Source: Gemmatimonadota bacterium (GTDB lineage Bacteria; Gemmatimonadota; Gemmatimonadetes; Longimicrobiales; Gaopeijiaceae). Taken from it: a stretch of 64,000 bases of DNA. Made by a program: the position numbers and the translations under genes. A model generated the notes under the pieces. It worked only from the letters and a program-made list of their open reading frames with translations, had not been told where the DNA came from and searched no databases. Position 1 is the first letter of the stretch; every line of letters starts with the position of its first letter. The DNA is taken from NCBI GenBank assembly GCA_030827315.1, contig JAURER010000003.1:1-64000 (forward strand). The letters are read 5' to 3'. Below, in pieces: positions 13,076 through 34,002 of this stretch.

Positions 13076-13630
13076 CTACATGCGCGGCAGGGTCACGCCG
13101 ACCTGCTTCATGTACTTTCCCTTCCGGTCCGCGTAGGCGATCTCGGGCTCCTCGTCGCCCTCGAAGAAGAGGAGCTGCGCGATCCCTTCACCCCCGTAGA
13201 CCTTCGCCGGAAGCGGCGTCGTGTTGGAGATCTCGAGCGTCAGATACCCCTCCCAGGTGGGCTCGAGCGGCGTGACGTTCACGATCAGTCCGCAGCGGGC
13301 GTACGTGGACTTGCCCACGCACACGACCAGCACGTCGCGGGGAATCCGGAAGTATTCTTCGGTCCGGGCGAGCGCGAAGGAGTTCGGCGGGATGATGCAC
13401 TCGGGCCCGTCGATGTTCACGAAGGAGCGCTCGTCGAAGTTCTTCGGGTCCACGATCGCGCTGTGGACGTTCGTGAAGACCTTGAACTCCTTCGAGACGC
13501 GGATGTCGTAGCCGTAGGAGGAGATCCCATAGGAGATCTTCCCGTCGCGCACCTGACCGGTCTCGAAGGGCTCGATCATGCCGTGCTCCTCGCACATCCG
13601 GCGGATCCACTTGTCACTCTTGATGGGCAT
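13076..13630 (-). CDS. dcd: dCTP deaminase
   Basis: [83 protein letters not shown]. Confidence 0.93.
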
Positions 13631-13730
13631 CGACGGGCCTTCTCCCATGGAATGTCGAGGTCATGCGGGGCCCCGCGCGTCGTGCGGGCGGGCGTCGGAG
13701 CGACGCCGAAGCGGGCGCGCCGGAGCGCGC

Positions 13731-13797: not shown

Positions 13798-13827
13798 TTG
13801 ACACTGCGCGCCGCGCCCGGGTACCTT
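13798..13827 (+). promoter_or_regulatory. Sigma70-like promoter for nuoA-N
   Basis: Consensus -35 TTGACA (13798-13803), N18, TACCTT (13822-13827), about 50 bp upstream of nuoA. Confidence 0.55.
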
Positions 13828-13846
13828 TTTCCCCGTTCGGCCTCGC

Positions 13847-13864
13847 TCGTGAAACATTTCACAA
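13847..13864 (+). promoter_or_regulatory. Putative Rex-type operator upstream of nuoA
   Basis: TCGTGAA-ACAT-TTCACAA: one mismatch from the Rex consensus TTGTGAA-N4-TTCACAA; perfect inner palindrome GTGAAA-CA-TTTCAC. Confidence 0.6.
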
Positions 13865-13878
13865 ACCCCAGCGACCCC

Positions 13879-14235
13879 ATGTCGGGAGCCTATCTCCCCC
13901 TCCTCATCCTGCTGGGCGTTTCGGTACTGAACGCCCTCGGCATGGTCGTCACGTCGCACATACTGAATCCGCGCCGCGATACGCCGCAGAAGCTCATGCC
14001 CTACGAATCGGGCATGATTCCCCTGGGCAGCACGAAGGCCCGCTTCTCGGTGAAGTTCTACATGGTGGCGATCAGCTTCATCGTGTTCGACCTCGAGACG
14101 ATCTTCCTGATTCCCTGGGCGGTGCACATGCGCGAGCTGGGCTGGAGTGCGTTCGTGTCGATGAGCATCTTCGTCGCGGTGCTCGCGATCGGCCTGGTCT
14201 ACGAGTGGAAGAAGGGAGGTCTGGAGTGGGACTGA
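13879..14235 (+). CDS. nuoA: NADH-quinone oxidoreductase subunit A
   Basis: [53 protein letters not shown]. First gene of the nuo operon. Confidence 0.93.
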
Positions 14236-14912
14236 CGGACAAGCTGCCCGGCGGCGGCTCCGCGAAGACCACCGGCGGGATGTTCGGGCCCGGCAGCCCG
14301 ACCTTTCTCACCAGCAAGGTCGACGCCCTGATCAACTGGGGCCGCCTGAACTCGCTCTGGCCGATGCCGTTCGGCACCGCGTGCTGCGCGATCGAGATGA
14401 TGGCCTCGGCCGCCTCGAACTACGACCTCGCCCGCTTCGGCATGGAGCGGATGTCGTTCAGCCCCCGTCAGGCCGACGTGCTCATCTGCGCCGGCAGGGT
14501 GCCCTACAAGCTCGCTCCGGTCCTCCGCCGCATCTGGGATCAGATGCCGCAGCCGAAGTGGGCCATCTCGATGGGCGCCTGCGCCAGCTCGGGGGGCGTC
14601 TTCGACGTGTATTCGATGGTGCAGGGGATCGACACGATCATTCCGGTGGACGTCTACATCCCCGGCTGCCCGCCGCGCCCCGAAGGGCTGATTTACGGCC
14701 TGATGATGATTCAGGAGAAGATCCGCCAGGAAAGCCTCACGAAGCACTTCGAGCACCGCGCGGAGGATCCGGCGCTGGTCGCGCGCCCGCGCGCCAGCGA
14801 GATCGAAGTCGTGGGGCTCACGGGGCCGTTCGGCAATTCGACGCAGCAGGACAAGCTCTCCACTGGTGTCGTCGTGACCCCGGACGCCCCGGCCGACGAC
14901 CTGCTCTCCTGA
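14226..14912 (+). CDS. nuoB: NADH-quinone oxidoreductase subunit B
   Basis: GTG start; [57 protein letters not shown]. Confidence 0.95.
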
Positions 14913-14916
14913 CGAC

Positions 14917-15606
14917 ATGGCAGACGAAACCAAGAGCGCACTCGACGCGGTAGACGAAGGTCCGGTCGCGTCGGGAGCGGAGTCGGCGGACGCCGGCGGT
15001 TCCACGGGCTCGCCCGACGACCACGCCTCGGTCGCTGCGCTCGTGCGCAAGTATCCCGACGAGGTCCTCCGGTACCGTCTGAACGCCGGAGACCAGTACG
15101 TGGTCTGGCTCCGGCCCGACAGGAGTCACGAGATTCTCGCCTGGCTGAGGGACGACGCCGACCACCGGTACGACATGATGTCCGACGTCACCGCCGTGGA
15201 CTACGGGTCCGGGCGGCCCGTCGAGGTCGTCTATCAGATGTACTCCACCCCGCATGGGCGCCAGCTCCGCATCCGTTGCCCGCTCCCGCTCGACGCGATG
15301 GAGATCGACTCGGTCTACGACCTCTGGAAGAGCGTGAACTGGCTCGAGCGCGAGGTCTACGACCTCTTCGGCGTGACGTTCCGTGGGCACCCGGACCTCA
15401 GGCGGATCCTGATGCCGGACGACTATGCCGAAGGCCACCCGCTTCGGAAGGATTTCCCGCTGCGCGGTCGCTTCTCTCGCGCAGAGCAGACCCGCCGGGC
15501 GCTGAACCAGGACGTGGAGCGCTTTTACCTCGCCGACGACCTCACGTACGGCGAGCCACAGGAAGTCGGCGGGGCCGAGGTCGGCCACCAGGGAGGCGAG
15601 GGCTGA
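14917..15606 (+). CDS. nuoC: NADH-quinone oxidoreductase subunit C
   Basis: WREVYDLFGV-like NWLEREVYDLFGVTFRGHPDLRRILMPDDYAEGHPLRKDFPLRGR. Confidence 0.93.
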   Translation: MADETKSALDAVDEGPVASGAESADAGGSTGSPDDHASVAALVRKYPDEVLRYRLNAGDQYVVWLRPDRSHEILAWLRDDADHRYDMMSDVTAVDYGSGRPVEVVYQMYSTPHGRQLRIRCPLPLDAMEIDSVYDLWKSVNWLEREVYDLFGVTFRGHPDLRRILMPDDYAEGHPLRKDFPLRGRFSRAEQTRRALNQDVERFYLADDLTYGEPQEVGGAEVGHQGGEG

Positions 15607-16886
15607 TGGCTACGAAGACCGTGGAGTTCACCGTCGGCCAGGGCCGGGAGATGGGCCCGGGCGGAGTCGGCACGCCGAGTCCCCTCGCTCCGTTCGACGT
15701 TCCCGAGCCCGACATCGGCACCGAGCGGATGCTCATCAACATCGGGCCGCAGCACCCGGCGACGCACGGCGTGCTCCGTCTGGTGTGCGAGCTCGACGGC
15801 GAGACGGTGACCGAGGTCGTGCCGCATATCGGCTACCTCCACTCTTCGTTCGAAAAGCTCGGAGAGTACCGGACCTGGAATCAGATCGTCCCGCTGACGG
15901 ACCGGATGGATTACCTGGCGCCGCTCATCTACAACTGCGCCTACGTCATGTCCGTCGAGAAGCTCATGGGCATCGAGGTGACCGAGCGCTGCAAGGTCGT
16001 GCGGGTCATCATCATGGAGCTCGACCGGATCTTCGGGCATCTGCTCTGGCTCGGCACCACCGCCATCGACGTCGGGGCGTTCACGCCGTTCCTCTACTCG
16101 TTCCAGCAGCGCGAGAAGATCTACGGGCTCCACGAGACGCTCACCGGCGCACGGATCACGACGTCGGCCACCCGCGTGGGCGGGATGATGGCGGACCTTC
16201 CGGAGGGGTGGCTCGACCAGCTCCTCGACTTCCTCGACAACTTTCCGAAGACGCTCGACGAGGTCGACAGCCTGCTCACGGGCAACCAGATCCACATCGG
16301 GCGGACGCAGGGCATCGGCGCCATCACCGCCGACGAAGCGATCAACTACGGCTTCACCGGCCCGAACCTCCGCGCGGCGGGCGTTCCGTACGACGTCCGC
16401 AAGGACCGCCCGTACTACGACTACGAGTCGTACGACTTCGACGTCCCCGTGGGCGAGCACGGTGACTGTTACGACCGCTACCTCTGCCGGATGGAGGAGA
16501 TGCGTCAGTCCGTGCGCATCATCCGTCAGGCGATGCGGCGCCTGCCCGGGGGGCCGATCAACGTTCAGGATCCCGGCATCTCGCTTCCCTCCAAGACGGA
16601 CGCGATGTCCGACATGGAGAGCATGATTCACCACTTCAAGCTGATCACCGAGGGCATCCCGGCCCCCGAGGGCGACTGCTACATGGCGATCGAGGCCTCC
16701 AAGGGAGAGCTCGGCATGTACGTGGTTGCGGAAGAGGGCAGCACCAAGCCGGTGCGCTGGCGGGTTCGCCCTCCCTCGTTCGTGAACCTGTCGGTGATCC
16801 CGAAGCTCGCGGAGGGGCACCTGGTGTCCGACCTGATCATGATCAACGCGAGCCTCGACATCGTGCTCGGGGAGATCGACCGATGA
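15606..16886 (+). CDS. nuoD: NADH-quinone oxidoreductase subunit D
   Basis: NIGPQHPATHGVLRLVCELDGETV, PHIGYLHSSFEKLGEYRTW, GELGMYVVAEEGSTKPVRWRVRPPSFVNL. Confidence 0.96.
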   Translation: MATKTVEFTVGQGREMGPGGVGTPSPLAPFDVPEPDIGTERMLINIGPQHPATHGVLRLVCELDGETVTEVVPHIGYLHSSFEKLGEYRTWNQIVPLTDRMDYLAPLIYNCAYVMSVEKLMGIEVTERCKVVRVIIMELDRIFGHLLWLGTTAIDVGAFTPFLYSFQQREKIYGLHETLTGARITTSATRVGGMMADLPEGWLDQLLDFLDNFPKTLDEVDSLLTGNQIHIGRTQGIGAITADEAINYGFTGPNLRAAGVPYDVRKDRPYYDYESYDFDVPVGEHGDCYDRYLCRMEEMRQSVRIIRQAMRRLPGGPINVQDPGISLPSKTDAMSDMESMIHHFKLITEGIPAPEGDCYMAIEASKGELGMYVVAEEGSTKPVRWRVRPPSFVNLSVIPKLAEGHLVSDLIMINASLDIVLGEIDR

Positions 16887-17536
16887 GCGAAACCCCCTTT
16901 CGGAACCCCGGCTGGGCCGGCAACACCGGTGAGTTCGACCTCACCGAGGAGCAGGTCCGCGGCGAGGACTTCGTCGGCGACCGTCCCGCGCACGGAGGCC
17001 ACGCCTCGGGCGCGGGTGCGATGCCGTACATGCTCGCGGAGAAGAACCCCGACGTGGCGCTCTTCGAGGGCGAGTACCAGGAGCGCTTCGAGAAGATCCT
17101 CACCCGGTATCCGACGAAGCAGGCCGCGCTGCTCCCCGCGCTCGGGCTCGCGCAGGAGATCCGCGGCTACGTCAGCCCGGATTCGATGGACCGGGTGGCC
17201 GAGCTCCTTGATCTGTCTCCGGCATACGTGCGCGGTGTCGCCACCTTCTACACGATGTACAACAAGCGCCCCGTGGGTCGGCACCTGGTGCAGGTCTGCA
17301 CGAACATCTCGTGCAACCTCAACGGGGCCGACGAGGTCGTGGAGGCGTTTCTCCGCTACACCGACACCGAGCTCGGCGAGACTTCCGAGGATGGCCACTT
17401 CACCGTCATCGAGGCGGAATGCCTCGCGGCCTGCGGCTTCCCGACCTGCGTGCAGATCAACTCCCGTTACTTCGAAAACGTGACCCCCGACCAGGTGCCG
17501 CAGATCTGCGAGCGCCTCAAGTCCGAGGGGAAGTAG
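16883..17536 (+). CDS. nuoE: NADH-quinone oxidoreductase subunit E
   Basis: ALLPALGLAQEIRGYVS, VATFYTMYNKRPVGRHLVQVCTNISCNLNGA, ECLAACGFPTCVQIN. Confidence 0.93.
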   Translation: MSETPFRNPGWAGNTGEFDLTEEQVRGEDFVGDRPAHGGHASGAGAMPYMLAEKNPDVALFEGEYQERFEKILTRYPTKQAALLPALGLAQEIRGYVSPDSMDRVAELLDLSPAYVRGVATFYTMYNKRPVGRHLVQVCTNISCNLNGADEVVEAFLRYTDTELGETSEDGHFTVIEAECLAACGFPTCVQINSRYFENVTPDQVPQICERLKSEGK

Positions 17537-17540
17537 GCGC

Positions 17541-18833
17541 ATGGCATACCCCTACGTCTCGGACCACGAGGTCCGGATCCTGAGCAAGCACTTCGGCGAT
17601 CCGATGCAGCGCCGCGTCGACACCTATGTCGAGCGGGGCGGCTACGGTGCGCTGAAGAAGGCCTTCGAGATGGGCCCCGAGAAGATCATCGACGAGGTGA
17701 AGGCCTCGGGTCTCCGCGGACGGGGCGGGGCGGGCTTCCCGACCGGCGTGAAGTGGTCGTTCATGCCCAAGGGCACGGGCAAGCCGCACTACCTGCTCTG
17801 CAACGCCGACGAGTCCGAGCCGGGCACCTTCAAGGACCGTGAACTGATGCGTTGGGATCCGCACCAGCTCATCGAGGGGTGCCTGATCGGCGCGTACGCC
17901 ATCGGCGCCCAGCACGTCTACATCTACTGCCGCGGCGAGTTCTTCGAGACCAACCAGGTTCTCGCCCGCGCAGTAGAGGACGCCTACGCCCGGGGCTACA
18001 TCGGCAAGGACATCATGGGATCGGGTGTCGACCTCGACCTCACCGTGCACCAGGGCGCAGGGGCGTACATCTGCGGCGAAGAGACGGGGCTCATGAACTC
18101 GCTGGAGGGCCGTCGCGGCCAGCCACGCGTCAAACCCCCGTTCCCCGCGGCGGTCGGCGCGTTCGGCATGCCCTCGACGATCAACAACGTCGAGACCCTC
18201 TGCACGGTGCCGCACATCGTCGCGAACGGCGGCGCCTGGTACCGCCAGTGGGGCACCGAGAAGAGCCCTGGCACGAAGCTGTTCTGCGTGAGCGGACACG
18301 TGAATCGCCCGGGCAACTACGAGCTGCCCCTCGGCTTCCCGCTCCAGAAGCTCATCGACGACGTGTGCGGCGGGATGCGCGGAGGGAACGCCCTCAAGGC
18401 CGTGATTCCGGGAGGCTCCTCCGTTCCGATCATCAACGCCGAGGAAGTCTCCCGCTGCACGCTCGACTACGAGGGGTGTGTCGCGGTCGGGACGATGCTG
18501 GGGTGCGCCTCGGTCATCGTCATGGACGAAACGACCGACGTGGTGAAGCAGGTACGGCGCATGGTCGACTTCTACGCCCACGAATCGTGCGGTCAGTGCA
18601 CGCCCTGCCGTGAGGGCTCGGCGTGGACAGCGAGGATCCTTCGCCGCATCGAGGAGGGAAGAGGGACCGAGGAGGACCTCGACACGCTCATGGACACGAC
18701 GCAGCAGATGGTCGGCACCACCATCTGCGTGCTCTCCGACTCCGTGGCGGCGCCGGTCCAGTCCTCGATCAACAAGTTCCGGGACGAGTATCTCGCTCTG
18801 ATTCGCCGCGGTGAGCGCGTGGGGGCTGCCTGA
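17541..18833 (+). CDS. nuoF: NADH-quinone oxidoreductase subunit F
   Basis: GLRGRGGAGFPTGVKWSFMP, CNADESEPGTFKDRELM, GAGAYICGEETGLMNSLEGRRGQPR, ESCGQCTPCREGSAW. Confidence 0.96.
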   Translation: MAYPYVSDHEVRILSKHFGDPMQRRVDTYVERGGYGALKKAFEMGPEKIIDEVKASGLRGRGGAGFPTGVKWSFMPKGTGKPHYLLCNADESEPGTFKDRELMRWDPHQLIEGCLIGAYAIGAQHVYIYCRGEFFETNQVLARAVEDAYARGYIGKDIMGSGVDLDLTVHQGAGAYICGEETGLMNSLEGRRGQPRVKPPFPAAVGAFGMPSTINNVETLCTVPHIVANGGAWYRQWGTEKSPGTKLFCVSGHVNRPGNYELPLGFPLQKLIDDVCGGMRGGNALKAVIPGGSSVPIINAEEVSRCTLDYEGCVAVGTMLGCASVIVMDETTDVVKQVRRMVDFYAHESCGQCTPCREGSAWTARILRRIEEGRGTEEDLDTLMDTTQQMVGTTICVLSDSVAAPVQSSINKFRDEYLALIRRGERVGAA

Positions 18834-20425
18834 TGGCCGACATGGTCAAGGTCACGATCGACGGACACGAGCTCGAAGTGCCGAAGGGCACCACCATCCT
18901 CGAGGCCGCCAAGCGGGTCGGCACCGAGGTGCCGCACTACTGCTATCACCCGGGCATGTCGTCCCCAGCGATGTGCCGTCTGTGTCTCGTCGACGTCGAG
19001 GGCGCGCCGAAGCCGATGCCGAGCTGCGTCACGACCGTCATGGACGGTCAGGTGGTGCACACGCAGTCGGAGAAGGCCCTCGCGAACCGCCAGGGTGTGC
19101 TCGAGTTCTACCTCGTGAATCACCCGCTCGACTGCCCGATCTGCGACATGTCGGGCGAGTGCAATCTCCAGGATTACGTTCACGAGGAGGGCCGCAAGCA
19201 GGGCCGCGGTCGTGAACCCAAGAGGGTTTTCGGGCGAGACGACTTCGGCGGTGACGTGCTCTTCTACGGCGACCGCTGCGTCATGTGCACGCGCTGCGTG
19301 CGCTTCATGAGCGAGGTCGAACAGGACGACCGACTCACCGTGGTCGAGCGCGGAAACCGCTCCGTCATCGACACCTTCTTCGCTGAAGGCCTCGACGGAA
19401 CGAACTGGCACGGCAACATCGTCGACATCTGCCCGGTGGGCGCGCTCGTCTCCAAGGACTTCCTCCACAAGGCGCGCGCCTGGGACCTGACGCACACGCC
19501 CTCGATCTGCACCAGCTGCTCGCAGGGGTGCAACATCGACCTCCACACGCGCGACAACCTCGTGCAGCGCATCAAGCCGCGTGAGAACCTGGACGTCAAC
19601 GGCTGGTGGATCTGCGATCACGGCCGGCACGACTACGAGTGGATGAACCGGGGCGACCGCCTCGAGGCGCCCCTCGCGCGTGACGGATCGACTTCCCGCG
19701 CGACGGGGTGGAAGGACGCCCTGCGTGGGGTGCTCGACGGAGCCGCTGCGTCCAGTGGCGGGGTCAGGGCCATCGCCTCGGCCGGCTCCTCCAACGAGGA
19801 TCTCGGAGCACTCCGGGCGCTCGTGGATGCGCTCGGCGGAGGGGAGATCGTCTATCGCTCCGCGCGCGCCGCGGACGAGATCCCACTTAAGGGCTATCCG
19901 ACGCTCGCGCGCCGCAGGGATCTCGCGCCGAACACCACGGGGGCCAACCTCATGGGGATGACCCGCGTGGGCGGAGACGACGCCACCGGCGGTCTCGAGG
20001 GTGTCGCTTCGCACGAGGGGGTCGTGATCGTCCTGGGCGATCGCCTGGACGACGTCGGTGCCGACTTCGGAGAGAAGGCGAGCCTTTACGTCTATCTCGG
20101 CACGCATGACGTCCCCGGCGCGTCGGCGGCGCACTTCGTACTGCCCGTGGCCACGCACGCGGAGTCGGAAGGGACGTTCACGAACCGGGAAGGGCGGGTG
20201 CAGCGGTTCGAACCGGCACTGCAGGCTCCTGGCATGGCCCGGCCTGCGTGGCTCGTGCTCGGGGCGCTCACCGCCGAGCGAACGGGTGGAGGGGTCGCGC
20301 GCACCGCGCCCGACGCCTTCGCGGCACTCGGATCGACCGTGCCCGCGTTCAGCGGAATCGGCTACGGCGACATCGGGTCGCGCGGAGCCGTCGTCAACGA
20401 ATCCGTTTCCCTGACGGGGGACTGA
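18833..20425 (+). CDS. nuoG: NADH-quinone oxidoreductase subunit G, short form
   Basis: 2Fe-2S (CYHPGMSSPAMCRLC), CPICDMSGECNLQDY, CVMCTRCVRF, and N7-type CTSCSQGC...CDHGR motifs; only 530 aa. Confidence 0.93.
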   Translation: MADMVKVTIDGHELEVPKGTTILEAAKRVGTEVPHYCYHPGMSSPAMCRLCLVDVEGAPKPMPSCVTTVMDGQVVHTQSEKALANRQGVLEFYLVNHPLDCPICDMSGECNLQDYVHEEGRKQGRGREPKRVFGRDDFGGDVLFYGDRCVMCTRCVRFMSEVEQDDRLTVVERGNRSVIDTFFAEGLDGTNWHGNIVDICPVGALVSKDFLHKARAWDLTHTPSICTSCSQGCNIDLHTRDNLVQRIKPRENLDVNGWWICDHGRHDYEWMNRGDRLEAPLARDGSTSRATGWKDALRGVLDGAAASSGGVRAIASAGSSNEDLGALRALVDALGGGEIVYRSARAADEIPLKGYPTLARRRDLAPNTTGANLMGMTRVGGDDATGGLEGVASHEGVVIVLGDRLDDVGADFGEKASLYVYLGTHDVPGASAAHFVLPVATHAESEGTFTNREGRVQRFEPALQAPGMARPAWLVLGALTAERTGGGVARTAPDAFAALGSTVPAFSGIGYGDIGSRGAVVNESVSLTGD

Positions 20426-20429
20426 GCCG

Positions 20430-21740
20430 ATGCTGGAACCGATTCAGGGCATTCCCGCGCTGATCGCGATGATGCTCAAGAACGTGGGCATATTCACGCT
20501 CGTCATTCTGGTGGTCGCCTACGCGACGCTCGCGGAGCGACGCGTATCGGCGTTCATCCAGGACCGTCGTGGTCCGAACCGCGTGGGCCCCTTCGGCCTC
20601 CTGCAGCCGATCGCGGACGGCATCAAGAACATTCTGAAAGAAGAGACACTGCCGGCCACGGCGTCGCGCTTCTTCTTCGTGCTCGCGCCGATCCTGGTGC
20701 TGGTCCCATCCATGGTGACCTTCGCCGTGATTCCGATCGCCGCGCCGCTGCCGACGCCCTGGGGCGTGGTCGACATGGTCATCGCCGACGTGCCGATCGG
20801 AATCCTCTGGGTTCTCGCGTTCAGCTCGCTCGCCGTCTACGGGGTGGTTCTCGGAGGGTGGGCGTCCAACAACAAGTACGCCTTCCTTGGCGGACTCCGC
20901 GCCTCCGCCCAGATGGTCAGCTACGAGGTCGCGCTGGGCCTTTCGCTCATCGCGGTGCTCATGATGGCCGGCAACGTGACGCTCACGGACGTGATCTGGC
21001 AGCAGCAGCAGCTCGGCATGTGGTTCGCCTTCCCGCTCTCGCTCGCCTTCATCCTCTTCGTCATCTCGGCGTTCGCAGAGACCAACCGGCTCCCCTTCGA
21101 CATGCCCGAGGCGGAGTCGGAGCTGGTCACCGGGTACCACACCGAATATTCGGCCATGAAGTTCTCGGCGTTCATGATCTCCGAGTTCGGCCACATGGTG
21201 ACGGCGTCGGCCCTCATGGCGACGCTGTTCCTCGGCGGCTGGGACCTGCCGGGTGCGTGGGACGATGCGTACTGGTACAACGGGATCCTGATCAGCGGCT
21301 TCGGAGCCGACGGCGCCGCGATCCTCGCCCAGCCCAGTGCGCTCAAGACGCTCCTCACCTTCCTCGGATTCGGGGCGAAGACCGGCTTCTTCCTCCTGGT
21401 CTACATCTGGATCCGCTGGACGCTGCCGCGCTTCCGGTACGATCAGGTGATGTCGCTGGGCTGGAAGGTCATGCTCCCGACCGCTCTCGCCTACGTGATG
21501 CTCGTCGCCATGACGATCCTCCTCCTCGACGAGCTGGGCGTCGCCTACGGCTTCGGCTACGGACTCGCGCTCACCGCGGTCAGCGGGGCGGCCACGTTCG
21601 CATTCATGTTCTTCCTCGACCGCGGCCGCACCATCACCGGAGCGGCTGCGCAGCGGACTCAGCGCGTCGAAGTGAAGACCATTCCCACGAAGGTCGCCGC
21701 CACGGAGGCGGGGGCCACGCCCGCACCCGCGGGCGACTGA
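20430..21740 (+). CDS. nuoH: NADH-quinone oxidoreductase subunit H
   Basis: AERRVSAFIQDRRGPNRVGPFGLLQPIADGIKNILKE, SAFAETNRLPFDMPEAESELVTGYHTEYSAMKF. Confidence 0.95.
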   Translation: MLEPIQGIPALIAMMLKNVGIFTLVILVVAYATLAERRVSAFIQDRRGPNRVGPFGLLQPIADGIKNILKEETLPATASRFFFVLAPILVLVPSMVTFAVIPIAAPLPTPWGVVDMVIADVPIGILWVLAFSSLAVYGVVLGGWASNNKYAFLGGLRASAQMVSYEVALGLSLIAVLMMAGNVTLTDVIWQQQQLGMWFAFPLSLAFILFVISAFAETNRLPFDMPEAESELVTGYHTEYSAMKFSAFMISEFGHMVTASALMATLFLGGWDLPGAWDDAYWYNGILISGFGADGAAILAQPSALKTLLTFLGFGAKTGFFLLVYIWIRWTLPRFRYDQVMSLGWKVMLPTALAYVMLVAMTILLLDELGVAYGFGYGLALTAVSGAATFAFMFFLDRGRTITGAAAQRTQRVEVKTIPTKVAATEAGATPAPAGD

Positions 21741-21758
21741 CAGCCAGGAACCGAATCG

Positions 21759-22259
21759 ATGGCGATTTCAGTCAAGGTCATGCACCGGCCCGCGCCGGAG
21801 ACGACGTCCTACCTCCGGGCGGCGCTCAGCGGGATGGCACTGACCTTCCGGCACATGGTCAACCCGGTCAAGGTGACGCAGCAGTACCCCGAGGAGCAGA
21901 CGGACCTCGACCCACGTTGGCGCGGGACCCACGTCATGGAGACCCACGCCGACGGACGCCCGAAGTGCGTGGCGTGCGGACTCTGTCCGACGGTTTGTCC
22001 GGCGAACTGCATCCGGCTCGTGGGTGGTGAAGACGACCAGGGGAACCGGTATCCACTCGTATACGAGATCGACGAATTCCGCTGCATCTTCTGCGGGATG
22101 TGCCAGGAGGTGTGTCCCGTGGAGGCGATCCACGTCGGGCGGCACTTCGAGAATGCCGAGTACACGCGCGACCGCTTCGTCTACGACCTCGATCGTCTGA
22201 TGGAGCAGGATCACCCGTCCACGCTCCTGTGGGACCCCTCCGACCCGACCTCCGAGTGA
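21759..22259 (+). CDS. nuoI: NADH-quinone oxidoreductase subunit I
   Basis: Two 4Fe-4S motifs: [18 protein letters not shown] and [17 protein letters not shown]. Confidence 0.94.
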
Positions 22260-22768
22260 TGTCGATTCTCTTCTACGTCTTCGCGGGGCTCGCGATCGGC
22301 GGCGCCGTCGGCGTCGTGATGGCGAAAAGCCCGGTGGGGAGCCTGCTCTTCATGGTCACGACGCTGGCCGCCATGGCGGGCACGTTCGTGCTCCTCGAAG
22401 CGCACTTCCTCGCGGCGATCCAGATCATCGTGTACGCGGGCGCCATCATGGTGCTCTTCCTCTTCGTGATCATGCTCCTGAACCTGGGGCACGACTACCA
22501 GAAGGATCTCAGGGGCGGCGCCTTCGCAGTGCTCTCCTTCGGCGTGATTGGCGGTATCGCGGGACTTCTGGCGCGCCAGCTCGGGGCCACCGGGTCCCTG
22601 TCGGGTCCCGGCGCCGGCGCGATCGACGCGGCCATCGCCGAGCACGGCGCACTCGGCGCGATCGCCGAGCCGCTCTACACGACGTACGTCGTCCCCTTCG
22701 AGATCACGGGCATCTTGCTGCTGGTCGCCATCGTCGGGGCGCTCGTCCTGGCGAAGAGGGAGGTCTGA
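22259..22768 (+). CDS. nuoJ: NADH-quinone oxidoreductase subunit J
   Basis: ATG overlaps the nuoI stop; [32 protein letters not shown]-type motif. Confidence 0.92.
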
Positions 22769-23061
22769 TGATCACCGAGTCCCTGGTCCTGAGTGCCATC
22801 CTCTTCGTGATCGGCACGTTCGGAGTCCTCGTTCGACGCAACGCGATCATCATGTTCCTCTGCATCGAGCTCCAGCTCAACGCGGTCAACCTGAGCCTGG
22901 TCGCCTTCTCGCGGATGTGGGGCATCGAGGGGCAGCTCTTCGTCTTCTTCGTGATGACCGTGGCCGCCGCGGAGGCCGCGGTGGGCCTCGCGATCATCAT
23001 CTCCATCTTCCGCCACTACGAGACGGTGAACGTGGACAGCTTCAACCTGCTCAAGTGGTGA
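22768..23061 (+). CDS. nuoK: NADH-quinone oxidoreductase subunit K
   Basis: [47 protein letters not shown]. Confidence 0.94.
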
Positions 23062-23066
23062 CGGGC

Positions 23067-25226
23067 ATGTACGCGTTCCTGACGGCGCTCGCGCAGGGCG
23101 GGGGAGATGCGGCCGCGTCCGAGGCCGGGCACTTCGAGCCTTTCCTGCCCGGCCTGGTGGTCCTGCTACCCCTCCTGGGGTTCGTCATCAACGGAATCCT
23201 GGCCCTGAAGCACGGGCGGGATTCGGCCGCAGCGGTCCGGGCCGGCGGCGAGCTGACGTTCGGCGATCGGAAACCCGCCACGCACACGCTGCCCACCTGG
23301 GTCGGCCCCGGGGTGATGGGGCTCGCGTTCCTGATCACGCTCGTGAACTTCACGCGCATGCTCGGGGCGCACCTCGAGGAGCCGGTGGTCGTCCACTACT
23401 GGACGTGGATCGCCACGGGGACGTTCACGGTGGATGCGGCGCTGCAGCTCGACCAGCTGTCCATGATCATGATGATGGTGGTCACGGGCGTCGGCTTCCT
23501 GATCCACGTGTTCAGCGTGGGCTACATGAAGGAGGACCCCGGGTATCCGCGATACTTCGCGTACCTGAACCTCTTCGTCTTCTTCATGCTCGTCCTCGTC
23601 ATGGGATCGAGCTACGCCTTGATGTTCGTGGGGTGGGAAGGCGTCGGGCTCTGCTCGTATCTCCTGATCGGGTACTGGTTTTCCGACCGTGAGAAGTCGG
23701 ACGCTGGCAAGAAGGCGTTCATCGTCAACCGCATCGGCGACGCGGGCTTCCTGATCGCGATGTTCATGGTGTTCGCGAACTTCGGATCCCTCGATTACGT
23801 CCCCGTCTTCCACGATGCCGAGGGCCTCGCCTACGCCGGCGGACTCGTCACGGCGATCACGCTCTTCTTCTTCGTGGGCGCCATCGGCAAGAGCGCGCAG
23901 ATCCCGCTCTTCGTGTGGCTTCCCGACGCGATGGCCGGTCCTACGCCGGTCTCCGCGCTGATCCACGCGGCCACGATGGTCACGGCGGGCGTGTACCTCG
24001 TCGCCCGTTCTTCGGTGCTCTTCGCGCTCGCACCCCTCACCAGTGCCGTCGTGGCCGGTATCGGCGCGCTCACGGCGCTGTTCGCGGCGACCATCGCGCT
24101 CAAGCAGAACGACATCAAGAAGGTGCTCGCGTACTCCACCGTCTCCCAGCTCGGGTACATGTTCCTGGGCGTGGGCGTGGGCGCGTACGCGGCTGGCGTT
24201 TTCCACCTCATGACCCACGCCTTCTTCAAGGCGCTCCTCTTCATGGGCTCCGGCGCGGTGATCCACGCCATGCACGAGGCGTATCACAGCACCCACAGCC
24301 ACGAGGACGCCCAGGACATGAGGAACATGGGCGGCCTCAGGGCGCACATGCCCATCACCTGGGCCACCATGTGGATCGCCACGCTCGCCATCGCCGGGAT
24401 CTGGCCGTTCGCGGGCTTCTTCTCTAAGGACGAGATCATTTGGCAGACCGCGGCTTTCGGTGGCGCCGCAGGTGCACCGTACACGGCGCTCTACACGGTG
24501 TACTGGGTCATGGCGCTCGCTGCGGCCATGCTCACGGCGTTCTACATGACCCGCATGATGGTCCTGACCTTCCACGGCGCGAACCGCACGGGTGCCGAGG
24601 AGTCCAGGCACCTGCACGAGGCCCCCGTGGTCATGTGGCTGCCCCTCGCGGTGCTCGCGGTGCTTTCCGTGTTCGGCGGGTGGATCAACGTCCCCGAGGC
24701 GATTCGCGCATCGTTCCTGGGCGGAGCTGGTGCTCTGCCGATGACGGAATGGCTGCACCACTGGCTCGAGCCCCTGACGGCTCAGGCCCACCACATCCAG
24801 GAGGAGCACCTCGGCGAGCTGGCACACGCGGCGCCGTTCGGCGGGGGCGAGGTCATGTGGGCTGTCATCTCCACAGTGGCTGCGGCGATCGTGGTCGCGG
24901 TCGCGATCCGGTTCGTCGGTGGACGGAAGGTGGTCGCGGTGGCCGAGGACACCACGGAGCTGACCGGTCTCTCGAAGGTCCTCTACAACAAGTACTACAT
25001 CGACGAGTTCTACGATCGCGTCGTGGTGAGGCCCATCGTCCAAGGCTCACGCTTCTGCTGGAAGGTCATCGACTCGCTCATCATCGACGGCGTGGTCAAC
25101 GCCGTCGGCTGGATCGCCAAGGCCTTCGGGTGGGGCATCAGCATGTTCCAGACCGGTAGCGTGAACACGTATGCATTCATCCTCACCGTCGGGGTGCTCG
25201 TCATCCTCGGCGCCAGCCTGTTCTAG
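23067..25226 (+). CDS. nuoL: NADH-quinone oxidoreductase subunit L
   Basis: GWEGVGLCSYLLIGYWF, KSAQIPLFVWLPDAMAGPTPVSALIHAATMVTAGVYLVAR, LAYSTVSQLGYMFLGVGVGAY. Confidence 0.95.
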   Translation: MYAFLTALAQGGGDAAASEAGHFEPFLPGLVVLLPLLGFVINGILALKHGRDSAAAVRAGGELTFGDRKPATHTLPTWVGPGVMGLAFLITLVNFTRMLGAHLEEPVVVHYWTWIATGTFTVDAALQLDQLSMIMMMVVTGVGFLIHVFSVGYMKEDPGYPRYFAYLNLFVFFMLVLVMGSSYALMFVGWEGVGLCSYLLIGYWFSDREKSDAGKKAFIVNRIGDAGFLIAMFMVFANFGSLDYVPVFHDAEGLAYAGGLVTAITLFFFVGAIGKSAQIPLFVWLPDAMAGPTPVSALIHAATMVTAGVYLVARSSVLFALAPLTSAVVAGIGALTALFAATIALKQNDIKKVLAYSTVSQLGYMFLGVGVGAYAAGVFHLMTHAFFKALLFMGSGAVIHAMHEAYHSTHSHEDAQDMRNMGGLRAHMPITWATMWIATLAIAGIWPFAGFFSKDEIIWQTAAFGGAAGAPYTALYTVYWVMALAAAMLTAFYMTRMMVLTFHGANRTGAEESRHLHEAPVVMWLPLAVLAVLSVFGGWINVPEAIRASFLGGAGALPMTEWLHHWLEPLTAQAHHIQEEHLGELAHAAPFGGGEVMWAVISTVAAAIVVAVAIRFVGGRKVVAVAEDTTELTGLSKVLYNKYYIDEFYDRVVVRPIVQGSRFCWKVIDSLIIDGVVNAVGWIAKAFGWGISMFQTGSVNTYAFILTVGVLVILGASLF

Positions 25227-25238
25227 GAGGCGCCCATC

Positions 25239-26903
<1,665 letters not shown>

Positions 26904-26918
26904 GCCGGACAGCCACAC

Positions 26919-28454
26919 ATGGAACTGGATTTCTCTAGACAGCTGCATTTCTTCTGGGCGCTCCTTCCGGAGATCATCCTGTGCGTCTGGGGCATGGCCG
27001 TCCTGGTGGCCGGGGTCTCTGGCCGGCACAGGAAGGGGGCGGCCACCGAGGGCGGAGACCCGAGCTTCGGTGGCGCCGCGGACCTGGGCTGGCTCGCGCT
27101 CGCCGGCGTGCTCCTGGCCGGGATGGCCAACGGTTGGCTGTACGGCGTCGACGAGGTCGGCCGCGACTCGATGGTGGCGCTCGACGGCTTCCGCCTCTTC
27201 GCAAACTGGATCTTCCTCGTTGCGGCGGCTCTCTCGATCCTGGTGTCGTTCACCTACGTGTACCGTCAGCGGCTGCAGGCCGGAGAGTTCTTCGGCCTGA
27301 TCCTGCTCTCCACGGCAGGGATGATGTTCATGGCCGGGTCCCGCGACCTCATCGTCGTCTTCCTGGGCCTCGAGGTCATGTCGATCGCGGTGTATGCCCT
27401 GACGGCGTTCAACCGGCGCGACCGCAAGTCGGCCGAGGCTGGCCTGAAGTATTTCCTGCTCGGCGCCTTCTCCACCGGATTCTTCCTCTACGGCATCGCG
27501 CTCCTGTACGGTGCCACGGGCAGCACGAACGTGGCAGAGATCGGGCGGGTGGTCGCGTCGGGAACCGCCCCGGCCGCGCTGCTCACCGCAGGGATCGCCT
27601 TCCTGACAGTCGGCTTCGGCTTCAAGGTTTCGGCCGTCCCGTTCCACATGTGGACCCCGGACGTATACGAGGGCGCGCCGGCGCCGGTCACGGCGTTCAT
27701 GTCCGCCGCCGTGAAAGCCGCGGCGTTCATCGCCTTCATGCGCGTGTTCATGGTGGCGCTCGACGGCGCCTACGATTCGTGGTACCCGATCGTCTGGTGG
27801 CTCGCGGCCGTAACGATGGTGATCGCCAATGTCATCGCGCTGGTGCAGTCCAACGTGAAGCGGATGCTCGCGTACTCGAGCATCGCCCACGCCGGCTACC
27901 TCCTCGTCGCGGTCACCGCCTCGAATGAGACTGCGGCCGCGGCCATGCTCTTCTACCTGCTCGTCTACACCGTGATGAACATCGGCGCCTTCGCCGTCGT
28001 CATCAGCGTGGCGCACCAGGGGGAGGAGCGCCTGCAGGTGGAGGATTACGCCGGCTTCGGCTGGGCGCAGCCCGCGATGGGCGTGGTGTTCACGGTTTTC
28101 CTGCTTTCGCTGGCGGGCTTCCCAGGCACCGGCGGATTCATGGGGAAGATCTACCTTCTCCAGGGAGCCGCGGACGCGCAGCTCTGGTATCTCTCCGTCG
28201 TCCTGGTCCTCACGACCATCGCGTCGTACTGGTATTACCTGCGGCTCGCGTGGTTCATGTGGATGAAGCGGCAGATCAGCGACGACCAGCACGACCTCGT
28301 GATCGTGCCGCTCCCCATGCGCGTCGCGCTCATGGTGGCAGCCGTCGTGGTCATCTACACCGGGATCTTCCCGGCGCCGGCTCTCGAGTTCGCCCGGAGC
28401 AGTGTCGAGGGACTCGGCGCCCTGAGCGGGAGCATGCTCGGACTGGGCCAGTAG
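26919..28454 (+). CDS. nuoN: NADH-quinone oxidoreductase subunit N
   Basis: VFLGLEVMSIAVYALTAFNRRDRKSAEAGLKYFLLGAFSTGFFLYG, HMWTPDVYEGAPAPVTAFMS. Confidence 0.95.
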   Translation: MELDFSRQLHFFWALLPEIILCVWGMAVLVAGVSGRHRKGAATEGGDPSFGGAADLGWLALAGVLLAGMANGWLYGVDEVGRDSMVALDGFRLFANWIFLVAAALSILVSFTYVYRQRLQAGEFFGLILLSTAGMMFMAGSRDLIVVFLGLEVMSIAVYALTAFNRRDRKSAEAGLKYFLLGAFSTGFFLYGIALLYGATGSTNVAEIGRVVASGTAPAALLTAGIAFLTVGFGFKVSAVPFHMWTPDVYEGAPAPVTAFMSAAVKAAAFIAFMRVFMVALDGAYDSWYPIVWWLAAVTMVIANVIALVQSNVKRMLAYSSIAHAGYLLVAVTASNETAAAAMLFYLLVYTVMNIGAFAVVISVAHQGEERLQVEDYAGFGWAQPAMGVVFTVFLLSLAGFPGTGGFMGKIYLLQGAADAQLWYLSVVLVLTTIASYWYYLRLAWFMWMKRQISDDQHDLVIVPLPMRVALMVAAVVVIYTGIFPAPALEFARSSVEGLGALSGSMLGLGQ

Positions 28455-28518: not shown

Positions 28519-29886
28519 ATGAAGGCCCACATCTTCCGTCAGTACGACATCCGCGGCATCGTGGGGCAGGATCTCGATTCGGAAGTCGCAGAGGCGGTCG
28601 GCCGTGCGATGGCCTCCCACGTTCGCGCCTCGTCGGGCCGGCAGAGGCCGCGCATCGCCGTCGGACACGACAACCGCACGTCGTCCCCCCACCTCGCCGC
28701 CGGCATGATCCGCGGAATCACCGCCGCGGGTGGCGACGTGCTCGACGTCGGCACCGTGCCGACCCCGGTGCTGTACTGGTCCGAGGTCACCTTCGGGACC
28801 GATGCAGGCGTTCAGATCACGGGCTCGCACAATCCGCCGGAGTGGAACGGGATCAAGATGACGTGCGGGCGGGCGGCTCTCTACGGGGACGCGATCCAGG
28901 GCCTCCTGCGGCGCATCCAGGACGACGACCTCGACTCGGGGGAAGGAAGCGTGGAGCGCGTCGACGTGCTCGACCGCTACGTGGAAGACGTCGCCGGCCG
29001 GTTCAGCCTCGCACGGCCGATGAAGGTGGCCGTGGACTGCGGAAACGGGAGCGGAGCACTCGTGGCGGAGCGCCTCTTCGAGGCCATGGGTGTCGAGATC
29101 ACGCCGCTTTTCTGCGACTCCGACGGGACCTTTCCGAACCACCATCCCGACCCGACCGTGGACGAGAATCTCGAAGATCTCATCGCGGCGGTGCGAGCGG
29201 CGCCCCACGATCTCGGGATCGCCTTCGACGGAGACGCGGACCGGATCGGGGCCGTCGACGAGCACGGAGCCATCGTGCGCGGCGACATGCTGCTGCTCCT
29301 GTTCGGCCTGGACCTCCTGGAGAAGCGGGGGCCGGGTCAGAAGCTCGTCTTCGACGTCAAGTGCAGCCAGGCGCTTCCGGAGGTGTTCGATGCGGCGGGT
29401 GGCGAGGCGATCATGTGGAAGACGGGACACTCACTTCAAAAGGTCAAGATGAAGGAGACGGGGGCGCTGCTGGCGGGCGAGCTCTCGGGTCACATCATGG
29501 TGGCCGACGACTACTTCGGCTTCGACGACGCGCTCTACGACGCCTGTCGGCTGGTGGAGCTTCTGAGCCGCTCGCAGCGCCCCCTCTCGGCCCGCGTCGC
29601 GGACTTTCCACGCTACGTCTCGACCCCCGAGATCCGCATCGACGTGACGGAGCAGCAGAAATGGGAGATCGTCGAGCGGGCCGTCGAGCACTTCAGCGCG
29701 CTGCACGACGTCATCGACGTCGACGGCGTGCGCGTACTCTTCGGCGACGGCTGGGCCCTGCTGCGCACCTCCAACACGCAGCCGGTCATCGTGGCGCGGT
29801 TCGAAGCCCGCTCGCCGGAGCGGCTCGCGGAGATCCGAGGCGAGGTCGCAGCCTGGCTCGCGGATCAGGGCGTGTCGCTCCCCTGA
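28519..29886 (+). CDS. Phosphomannomutase/phosphoglucomutase
   Basis: IFRQYDIRGIVGQDLD, GVQITGSHNPPEWNGIKM, AFDGDADRIGAVDEHG, GELSGHIMVADDYFGFDDA. Confidence 0.92.
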   Translation: MKAHIFRQYDIRGIVGQDLDSEVAEAVGRAMASHVRASSGRQRPRIAVGHDNRTSSPHLAAGMIRGITAAGGDVLDVGTVPTPVLYWSEVTFGTDAGVQITGSHNPPEWNGIKMTCGRAALYGDAIQGLLRRIQDDDLDSGEGSVERVDVLDRYVEDVAGRFSLARPMKVAVDCGNGSGALVAERLFEAMGVEITPLFCDSDGTFPNHHPDPTVDENLEDLIAAVRAAPHDLGIAFDGDADRIGAVDEHGAIVRGDMLLLLFGLDLLEKRGPGQKLVFDVKCSQALPEVFDAAGGEAIMWKTGHSLQKVKMKETGALLAGELSGHIMVADDYFGFDDALYDACRLVELLSRSQRPLSARVADFPRYVSTPEIRIDVTEQQKWEIVERAVEHFSALHDVIDVDGVRVLFGDGWALLRTSNTQPVIVARFEARSPERLAEIRGEVAAWLADQGVSLP

Positions 29887-29905
29887 TCGCGATCGGGAAG
29901 AGGCG

Positions 29906-32731
29906 ATGAACCGCTCGTCACGGGGAGGAACGGGCGCGCTGCACGGAGGGCGCCGGCTGATCGTGATCCTCGTCGCGATCGGTCTGGTCGCGGGCGTCGG
30001 TCGCGCGCTCACCGGACTCTACGTCGAAGTGCTCTGGCAGCTGCAGGCGGGCTACGCGGGCGTCTTCTGGCGCCGCGTGGCCTGGGAGTGGGGGGTGCAG
30101 GTGGCCGCTGGCGTGCTCGTGGCGGCAGTCGTGTTCCTCAACCTCCGGGTCGCGGCGACCACGCTGGGCGGCATCCAGATCCGGCGGCGGTTCGGGAACA
30201 TCGAGATCTCCGAGCAGATCCCCAGGAGGTACGTGACCTGGTCGCTCGGCACCGCCGCGGTGCTCATCGGCCTCTGGTTCGGGGCCGCCGTGCCGCCGGG
30301 CATCGGGCGACAGGCGCTGCTGGCCATCTCAGCCCCGGCGTGGGGCGTCACCGATCCCGTCCTGAACCGGGACCTCGGCTTCTACGTCTTCTGGTACCCG
30401 GTGCTGGGCAGCGCGATCACCTACGCCATGATCCTGGCCATCCTGGTCTTCACGCTCGCCACGGCGGGGTACGCGGCCACCGGGGCGGTTTCGTGGGCGC
30501 GCGGGCGCCTTCAGGCGCACGGCATCGCCCGCGTGCACCTCGGGATGATTCTGGCGATCTCTTTCCTCCTGCTGTCGCTGCGACTCTGGCTGGGCCGTTA
30601 CGAGCTTCTCATGAGCGGAAGCTCGGCGGTGCAGGGGATCTTCGGGTTCACGGACGCGCATGCCCGACTTCCCGCGCTCCGCACCCTCGCCGTCATCAGC
30701 GCGGGCGCGGGGGCCGCGACCGCTTGGGGCGCGCTGCGAGACCGCGGGTGGGCGCTCGTCACCTCGTTCACGGTCGTCGTCCTCTCCACGGTCCTCATCG
30801 GCAACGTCTATCCGTCGCTCATCCAGAACTTCCGTGTCGAGCCAAACGAGCTGCAGCGCGAGACTCCCTACATCGAGCACGCGCTGGACTTCACGCGACG
30901 CGGTTTCGGTCTGGAGGAGACCGAGCGCCGCAGCTTGCAGCACGACGCCGACGTCGCGCTGGACTGGGACGAGGCCGCGCGTCAGTTCGCCGGCCTGCCC
31001 GTGTGGGGGAGGGACCCATTGCGGACGACCTTCCAGGAAGTCGAAGCCCGCTTCTCCTACTACGACTTCGACGGAGTCTTCATCGACCGGTACCCGTCCT
31101 CGGAAGGGCTGACTCCCGTAGCCATCGCGGTCCGGAAGATCGACCCGGCCGGCATCCAGGGAATCCAGGGAAGCAACTGGCAGAACACGCGCCTCCGCGA
31201 GCGATACGTGTCCGGGATGGGCGCGGTAGCGTCCGTCGCCAACCGCCGTTCGCCCGACGGGCGGCCGGAAATGCTCCTCGCCGGCATTCCGCCGGTCGCC
31301 GCGCAGAGTACCGCCGGCGTGACTCCCCTGACGCTGCAGCGTCCCCAGGTCTACTACGGAGCATACGCGGTACGCTCGGGGTCGCTGCCCGGGGGGGGCG
31401 ACTACGCGATCGTCACCCCGGGCGACGACCAGTACCGAAACCCCGATGGCGTGGTCGGGCTCGCCGGCGAGGACTTCCCCGAGGGGATCCCGCTCTCCTC
31501 GGCGCTGCGCTCCGCGCTCCTCGCCTGGCGGTTCGGTACCGCGAACCTCCTGTTCTCTTCTGAGATCCACTCCGAAAGCCGCCTCATCCACCGACGGGAC
31601 GTCGTCGAGCGCGCAGAGGCGATCGCGCCCTTCCTCCGCTTTCCGGAAGTGCCCTATCCGGTCATCCACGAGGGACGGATCGTCTGGGTCCTTGAGGCGT
31701 TCACCGGGACGAGGGCCTTCCCGCTCGCCGCCGTGCACCCGATGGGCGCCCTCGGTACGTCGGGCCGGTTCGTCCGCTACGTCCGCAACAGCGTCAAGGT
31801 CACGGTCGATGCGGTGACCGGTGACGTCCGCTTCTACAGGGTGCCCATCCACGATCCCCTCGCCGACGCCCTCGACCAGGCGTATCCGGGGCTCCTCGAA
31901 CCCATGGAGTCGATGCCGGAGGGGCTGCGCAGCCATCTGCGCTACCCCCGCTCGCTCCTGGCCCTGCAGTCGAGGGTGCTCCTGCAGTACCACCAGGAGA
32001 CCGCACCCGTCTTCCACGGCCAACAGGACGTCTGGAGCGAGCCGGAGGAGCTCGCCAAGAGCACCAGCCCGGTGCCGTACGAAGCGGAATACGGGATCTG
32101 GCGGCTTCCGGGCGAGGAGGAGGCGCGCTTTCACCTCACCACCGTCTTCGTCCCGAGCGGCCGCGAGAACCTCACGGCCATCTTCGTCGGACGCACCGAC
32201 GCAGCGGGCCGCCCCGAGACGGTCCTGATGGACGTGCCGGTGGACCAGCAGCTGCTCGGCCCGAGGCAGATCGAGGCACAGGTCGAGCAGGATCCCGTGA
32301 TCTCGCAGCAGTTCTCCCTCTGGCGCACGGGAGGGAGCGAGGTCTGGACCGGGCACCTGCACCTGGTGCCCGTGGGCGAGCGGCTCCTCTACGTCGAACC
32401 GGTCTTCCTCGCGGCGACGAATGACGCCATTCCCGAGCTTCGTCGTTTCGTGGTGAGCGACGGGAGGGAAGTCGTCATGACCGAGACGCTGCCCGAGGCC
32501 TTCGTCCAGCTGTCCGGTCGCGCCGCCCCGGCGCCGGCCGGGGTCGCCGACGCTCCGTGGCCCCAGGAACCGCCGGTTACGGGCCAGGCCACCGGAAGCT
32601 GGCCGGTCGAGGCGTTGCGGCTCCTCGAGCAGGCCGAGACCCGCGCCCGTGCCGGGGACTGGCAGGGGTACGGCGTGGCCCTGGACGAGCTCCGCGAACT
32701 CCTGCGGCGGCTCCAGGGCGGCGGCGGGTGA
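29906..32731 (+). CDS. UPF0182 (COG1615) family large membrane protein
   Basis: N-terminal multi-TM, GYxGVFWRR, YVTWSLGTAAVLIGLWFG; VEPNELQRETPYIEHALDFTRRGFGL, FTDAHARLPALR; 941 aa. Confidence 0.88.
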   Translation: MNRSSRGGTGALHGGRRLIVILVAIGLVAGVGRALTGLYVEVLWQLQAGYAGVFWRRVAWEWGVQVAAGVLVAAVVFLNLRVAATTLGGIQIRRRFGNIEISEQIPRRYVTWSLGTAAVLIGLWFGAAVPPGIGRQALLAISAPAWGVTDPVLNRDLGFYVFWYPVLGSAITYAMILAILVFTLATAGYAATGAVSWARGRLQAHGIARVHLGMILAISFLLLSLRLWLGRYELLMSGSSAVQGIFGFTDAHARLPALRTLAVISAGAGAATAWGALRDRGWALVTSFTVVVLSTVLIGNVYPSLIQNFRVEPNELQRETPYIEHALDFTRRGFGLEETERRSLQHDADVALDWDEAARQFAGLPVWGRDPLRTTFQEVEARFSYYDFDGVFIDRYPSSEGLTPVAIAVRKIDPAGIQGIQGSNWQNTRLRERYVSGMGAVASVANRRSPDGRPEMLLAGIPPVAAQSTAGVTPLTLQRPQVYYGAYAVRSGSLPGGGDYAIVTPGDDQYRNPDGVVGLAGEDFPEGIPLSSALRSALLAWRFGTANLLFSSEIHSESRLIHRRDVVERAEAIAPFLRFPEVPYPVIHEGRIVWVLEAFTGTRAFPLAAVHPMGALGTSGRFVRYVRNSVKVTVDAVTGDVRFYRVPIHDPLADALDQAYPGLLEPMESMPEGLRSHLRYPRSLLALQSRVLLQYHQETAPVFHGQQDVWSEPEELAKSTSPVPYEAEYGIWRLPGEEEARFHLTTVFVPSGRENLTAIFVGRTDAAGRPETVLMDVPVDQQLLGPRQIEAQVEQDPVISQQFSLWRTGGSEVWTGHLHLVPVGERLLYVEPVFLAATNDAIPELRRFVVSDGREVVMTETLPEAFVQLSGRAAPAPAGVADAPWPQEPPVTGQATGSWPVEALRLLEQAETRARAGDWQGYGVALDELRELLRRLQGGGG

Positions 32732-32770
32732 CGCAGCCCGAAGGGCCCTCGCGACCCCCGGCCTCTACCG

Positions 32771-32799
32771 TTGATCGCCCCCCGGTGCTCTGGTAGGTT
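32771..32799 (+). promoter_or_regulatory. Sigma70-like promoter for sucCD
   Basis: TTGATC (32771-32776), N17, TAGGTT (32794-32799). Confidence 0.5.
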
Positions 32800-32808
32800 C
32801 CTTTGCTC

Positions 32809-32830
32809 TCCCGCGGCCTAACGCGCGGGA
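32809..32830. other. Inverted repeat in the presumed sucC leader
   Basis: TCCCGCG-gcctaacg-CGCGGGA: perfect 7-bp arms, 8-nt loop, just downstream of the -10. Confidence 0.45.
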
Positions 32831-32857
32831 CAACCAGAAACCAGCGACCGACAACGT

Positions 32858-33991
32858 ATGGACATCCACGAGTACCAGGCCAAGGAGCGCTTCATCGCGG
32901 CCGGGATTCCCGTTCCCCCGGGCAGGATCGCGACCACCGCCGACGAGGCCGAAGCGATCGCGAGGGATTTCGGCGGTCCGGTCATGGTCAAGGCACAGGT
33001 CCACTCCGGAGGCCGGGGCAAGGCGGGGGGCGTGAAGTACGCCGCCGACGCCGCCGCGGCCCGTGAGCACGCCTCCCGGATTCTCGGGATGGACATCAAG
33101 GGGCTGACGGTCGAGAAGGTCCTGGTCACGCCGGCAGAGGACATCGCCAGCGAGGCGTACGTCGGGGTCCTCGTCGACCGGAAGACGCAGGCGGCGACCT
33201 TCATGGTCTCGGCCGAGGGCGGGATGGACATCGAGGAGGTCGCCGCGACGAACCCCGATGCGATCCGCCGACTTGCCGTCGATCCCCGGTACGGTCTTCT
33301 TCCGCACCAGGCCTACTGGCTCGCGAACTTCCTGTACGAGGAACCGGCGCACATCAGGCAGGCCGCCAGCGTGATCGCCCGGCTCTACGACTCCTTCGTG
33401 GACTCCGGGGCCTCGATGACGGAGATCAATCCGCTCATCACGACCCCCGACGGAGCGGTCAAGGCGATCGACGCCAAGATGAGCATCGACGACAACGAGC
33501 TCTTCCGTCGGCCCGACGTCGCAGCCATGCGCGACAACTCGGCCGAGCCGGCGTCGGAGACGAAGGCCCGCGAGGCGAGTCTCTCGTACGTGAAGCTCGA
33601 CGGAAGCGTCGGCTGCTGCGTCAACGGCGCGGGCCTGGCCATGGCGACCATGGATCTGGTGAAGTACTACGGCGGCGAGCCGGCGAACTTCCTCGACATC
33701 GGCGGATCGTCCAATCCGGACAAAGTCGTGGCGGCGCTCGAGATCATCACCTCGGATCCGAACGTCAAGTCGATCCTCTTCAACATCTTCGGTGGAATCA
33801 CCCGCTGTGACGACGTGGCCAACGGGATCGTCGAGGCCACGAAGCGGATCCAGATCGACGTCCCGATCGTGATTCGTCTCACGGGCACCAACGAAGAGCT
33901 CGCGCTCGAGATCCTCGAAAAGGCCGGGTTCTCGGCCTACACCTCCATGGACGCGGTCGTCGAAAAGGCCGTTCAGCTGGCCAACGCGTAA
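32858..33991 (+). CDS. sucC: Succinate--CoA ligase, beta subunit
   Basis: [82 protein letters not shown]. Confidence 0.95.
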
Positions 33992-34002
33992 GGCGCACAG
34001 AC

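Follow-up and report, generated by a model that had tools for sequence, protein, structure and literature searches.

The window, the whole 64,000-nucleotide stretch of DNA analysed here, is part of contig 72 in a Gemmatimonadota genome of 3.07 Mb that is 98% complete; it carries a nuo gene cluster, whose NuoA has its closest named relatives in Gemmatimonadota metagenome-assembled genomes. The features at the start of this cluster are as follows.

13076–13648, minus strand: dCTP deaminase-like gene, the divergent neighbour; the nuoA promoter sits between this gene and nuoA.
13798–13803, plus strand: −35 hexamer TTGACA of the nuoA promoter, read directly; 100% conserved across the genus (13 genomes), with a 17–18-bp spacing at nearly all nuoA sites class-wide.
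13822–13827, plus strand: −10 hexamer TACCTT, read directly; 94% conserved within the genus.
13847–13864, no strand assigned: predicted Rex operator TCGTGAA-ACAT-TTCACAA, from sequence match and conservation.
13879–14235, plus strand: nuoA, encoding complex I chain 3, the first gene of the nuo cluster (PF00507, E = 7.9e-38).
13879–28454, plus strand: nuo gene cluster, the putative controlled unit, checked by Pfam at nuoF, nuoG, nuoH and a Proton_antipo_M subunit that is probably nuoN.

Positions 28519–34887, 3′ of the cluster, hold genes for a phosphoglucomutase/phosphomannomutase and a large UPF0182 membrane protein, followed by sucC- and sucD-like genes.

The palindrome before nuoA, TCGTGAAACATTTCACAA, departs from the Rex motif TTGTGAA-N4-TTCACAA at a single base, the C at position 2, and encloses a perfect inverted repeat, GTGAAA-CA-TTTCAC. 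The promoter consists of TTGACA, an 18-bp spacer and TACCTT; a further 19 bp lead to TCGTGAAACATTTCACAA, which ends 14 bp before the nuoA ATG (13879–13881). If transcription starts about 7 bp past the −10 element, the predicted operator would span roughly +13 to +30. A sequence-only reading of this DNA had proposed the same palindrome, promoter and start codon; its sequences and coordinates proved exact on direct reading (with a promoter gap of 19 bp), and so did the perfection that it ascribed to the inner repeat. It had also held that such a palindrome is not expected by chance, and TCGTGAAACATTTCACAA is indeed the sole match to TTGTGAAN4TTCACAA in the window at three or fewer mismatches, against a chance mean of 0.21 per shuffle, with no match to the reversed pattern genome-wide.

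The host genome encodes one protein in which PF06971 is followed by PF02629, at C6:43647–44276, which we call rex; the winged-helix-plus-Rossmann gene that the sequence-only reading had suggested looking for is therefore present. The N-terminal DNA-binding domain (PF06971, E = 3.7e-16) scores over the cut-off, and the C-terminal NAD-binding Rossmann domain (PF02629) matches at E = 1.5e-17. The best matches in the PDB are Rex proteins (5zz5, 2dt5, 1xcb and 3ikt; E down to 5.6e-50). In an alignment with Thermus Rex, the GxGxxG motif VGAGRIG of the host protein aligns to VGMGRLG, and equivalents of R16 and Y98 are retained together with the QVRKDLSxFG stretch. As judged from these alignments, the predicted NAD-binding and DNA-recognition stretches of host Rex are kept.

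Conservation of the site before nuoA extends across the order and into much of the class. Within the genus (13 genomes), conservation reaches 99% in the operator arms, 100% in the −35 and 94% in the −10 element, compared with 70–74% in the stretches flanking the operator and 58–61% further upstream. A first sample of relatives has the site in 28 of 30 nuoA regions, and a set of genomes with rex has it in 73 of 79, so that the palindrome, which had been proposed for checking in relatives, is found in close and distant ones alike. A pattern linking operator to nuoA matched 49 of 298 genomes of the phylum (control, 0), and many of the nuoA regions that it missed carry the site on reading; some families have the variant ACGTGAAAAWTTTCACGA. 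An outside control of 70 nuoA regions from other phyla included none with the site at fewer than three mismatches. Class-wide, the distance from the −10 element to the nuoA operator is 8–21 bp (one outlier, at 32 bp, has a poor promoter call), whereas that from operator to ATG runs from around 13 to more than 150 bp, a more than tenfold spread; in genus g24 the site lies about 90–165 bp from the ATG with its distance to the −10 element kept. Because the first distance is narrow and the second so variable, the nuoA site is tied to the promoter and not to the start codon.

The operator also follows the presence of rex. All 49 genomes found with the linked pattern are listed among the 267 with a PF06971 match. 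Conversely, 12 of 13 nuoA regions from rex-less genomes lack the site (six regions from genus g26, and one each from G253, G178, G020, G035, G085 and G184), and most of the rex-less regions keep a TTGAC/TA-box promoter. The sampled g24 relatives of G253 retain both rex and operator, as do the g35 relatives of G178. At loci not selected by motif, the site is present in 51 of 57 regions of the rex group versus 1 of 13 rex-less regions (Fisher P = 2e-8, ignoring kinship). About five losses of rex together with the operator look independent, as judged by taxonomy labels and not by a tree. The atp promoter described below behaves likewise: in rex-less G035 its site has decayed to TTGCGACCCTTTTCCCCA with the promoter intact, and rex-less G020 has no atp site. 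Exceptions are six rex-positive genomes without a clear nuoA site (G021, G192, G220, G211, G191 and G210) and G204, a rex-less draft (87% complete) in which the nuoA site is present. Two genomes were counted as rex-positive on weak grounds, G010 (63% complete, Rex not found) and G029 (a C-terminal fragment only), and rex-less calls in drafts can stem from missing contigs, most of the affected genomes being 87–99% complete. The joint absence of operators and rex resembles a set of natural deletion experiments, which makes the regulatory link unusually firm for one drawn without bench work.

Further sites were sought with mismatch patterns, using TYGTGAAN4TTCACRA as the strict form and the reversed pattern as control. 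The strict form occurs three times in the host genome, at rex, at nuoA and at a DUF192 lipoprotein gene (reversed control, 0). In 39 related genomes the reversed pattern has no match, and strict sites number 0–3 per genome, nearly all of those checked lying at rex, nuoA or DUF192. The site at the host rex promoter (C6:44319) starts 60 bp 5′ of the rex start codon and overlaps a TACATT −10 element; most relatives have the same motif at their rex promoter, abutting the −10 element. In G007, G013, G003, G012 and G002 (L165, L167, L173, L174 and L175) the rex operator is degraded or lost and the nuoA site intact, so that rex autoregulation seems to be decaying in these genomes. The DUF192 site (C63:9069; L006, 1501–1518) covers the first codons of its gene and is found in the genus only (also L057, L067 and L193–L206), where most members retain the CGT codon and the TTTCAC stretch and several have a degenerate form. 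The DUF192 gene is divergent from a Trm112-like gene, which precedes a c-type cytochrome gene.

The sequence-only reading had expected matches at cyd, ndh and rex. The one at rex was found, and the host genome's strict-pattern matches include none at cyd or ndh, so the regulon found agrees only in part with the one expected. A further respiratory site, weaker but conserved, does occur at the promoter of atpZ/atpI-type ATP-synthase genes, where C74:13619–13636 (L241) is a two-mismatch match. This site reads TTGCGAAAAATTTCACAA or nearly so in several further genera within the order (L288, L303, L304, L306 and L307), and is degenerate and only half-conserved within the window's own genus. Its first six bases form a −35-like hexamer with a −10 element 16–17 bp downstream, and the operator thereby lies over the −35 element and part of the spacer. 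Among the few two-mismatch genome matches that were examined, C36:37734, C36:75971 and C6:19392 resemble coding sequence and were rejected as Rex sites.

Taken as a whole, the sequence evidence leaves us highly confident that the host's own Rex repressor uses the palindrome as its operator at the nuo (complex I) promoter; the proposal that Rex controls complex I here draws support from the rex gene, the conservation of the site and the further sites. If it behaves like characterised members of its family (PMC5355995, PMC2883068), host Rex should bind DNA at a low NADH/NAD+ ratio and leave it at high NADH. As long as NADH is scarce compared with NAD+, a dimer of Rex would occupy the DNA just past the nuoA transcription start, where it would prevent RNA polymerase from binding the TTGACA/TACCTT promoter or from clearing it. 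A rise in NADH, for example when electron acceptors are short, would release Rex from the DNA and allow complex I to be made, and NADH would then be re-oxidised. Since complex I consumes NADH, the predicted Rex–nuo circuit makes sense as feedback.

The operator lies past the −10 element at nuo, abuts it at rex and covers the −35 element at atp, and steric blocking of polymerase is the predicted mode common to the three sites. At nuo, Rex might act as a road-block, the word used in the sequence-only reading, in the strict sense of halting elongation past the start while polymerase can still load. The site in the window would allow this variant, since its start, 19 bp past the −10 element and at about +13, is close to where a polymerase footprint has its leading edge, but we consider it rather doubtful: most other families place the site only 8–15 bp after the −10 element, inside the expected footprint, and the rex and atp operators overlap promoter elements. 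On account of these short gaps and overlaps, occlusion looks like the general mode, and a block of polymerase binding or promoter escape would suit the arrangement at least as well as an elongation block.

Class-wide conservation of the site and its loss with rex argue strongly against look-alike operators of CRP/FNR regulators, RNA hairpins and chance. The CRP/FNR consensus, TGTGA-N6-TCACA, has a spacing equal to that of the Rex motif. TCGTGAAACATTTCACAA fits it with one change, and a CRP-like, HTH-containing protein (L082, from the same contig) is encoded in the host genome. Binding of the nuoA palindrome by such a regulator is nevertheless very unlikely, given that the site vanishes along with rex, that the motif recurs at the rex promoter and that the inner A and T beside N4, which CRP does not need, are conserved in 71 of 73 and 73 of 73 sites. 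The strongest cNMP-domain match in the genome (L079, at a contig end) has broken reading frames. It is scarcely credible, too, that the palindrome controls translation or stability by folding into a hairpin in the nuoA leader RNA: GUGAA and UUCAC could pair in the transcript, and the leader folds somewhat better than its shuffles (z = −1.9), yet the g24 site keeps a fixed distance to the −10 element while far from the ATG, and the rex and atp sites, touching the −10 and covering the −35 element respectively, therefore lie wholly or partly outside the transcript. A chance palindrome, which the shortness of the site and its one mismatch might suggest, has a negligible probability given the absence of the reversed pattern from 39 genomes and the 99% conservation of the arms against roughly 60% in the upstream flanks within the genus, and is contradicted by conservation and co-loss with rex.

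The predicted operator and its Rex can be set beside characterised systems. In Streptomyces avermitilis, operators resembling TTGTGAAN4TTCACAA are bound by Rex at nuoA, at atp and at the promoter of rex itself (PMC5355995), which establishes the Rex control of nuo in Streptomyces that the sequence-only reading had mentioned; the likeness to that system (nuoA1-N1) consists in nuo, atp and rex as targets, predicted ones here. The nuoA1 operator, with a footprint from −42 to −16, lies between and over the −35 region (PMC5355995), whereas the present site lies past the −10 element. In Streptomyces, rex shares a transcript with hem genes and the targets include cyd, in contrast to the present genome, in which no strict cyd site was found. 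The S. avermitilis cydA1 operator likewise lies downstream of the start (footprint −3 to +25; PMC5355995), but its target is cytochrome bd and not complex I. Staphylococcus aureus Rex shares the palindrome (TTGTGAAW4TTCACAA) and the repressor family with the host, and differs in targeting anaerobically induced genes (PMC2883068). In Caldithrix abyssi, from another little-studied phylum, a Rex site was computed before rex (PMC5317091); there the target is a hydrogenase operon (PMC5317091), here nuo. The predicted circuit is thus of the Streptomyces kind, in another phylum and with a different operator position. We found no report of NADH-controlled complex I in Gemmatimonadota in the open-access literature; the Rex survey of Ravcheev (2012) might mention the phylum.

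The predicted operators also differ in their fit to the consensus. At base 2, T occurs in 4 of 73 nuo sites versus 22 of 25 rex sites (ignoring kinship); class-wide, a C or A there puts the left half of the nuo operator off-consensus, while the right half is nearly always TTCACAA. The off-consensus base may reflect a tuned, weaker nuo operator. We tentatively suggest, at somewhat short of even confidence, that the Gemmatimonadota Rex regulon is old and very small (rex, nuo, atp and, at the genus level, DUF192), with graded operator position and strength: the rex site is near-perfect and abuts the −10 element, the atp site doubles as the −35 element, and the nuo site lies past the −10 element with one half-site off-consensus. 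Were this grading true, the nuo operon would switch on before rex as NADH rises. With this analysis, the prediction that NADH governs the expression of complex I reaches a widespread, poorly cultured phylum, and a compact set of promoters becomes available for comparing operator position.
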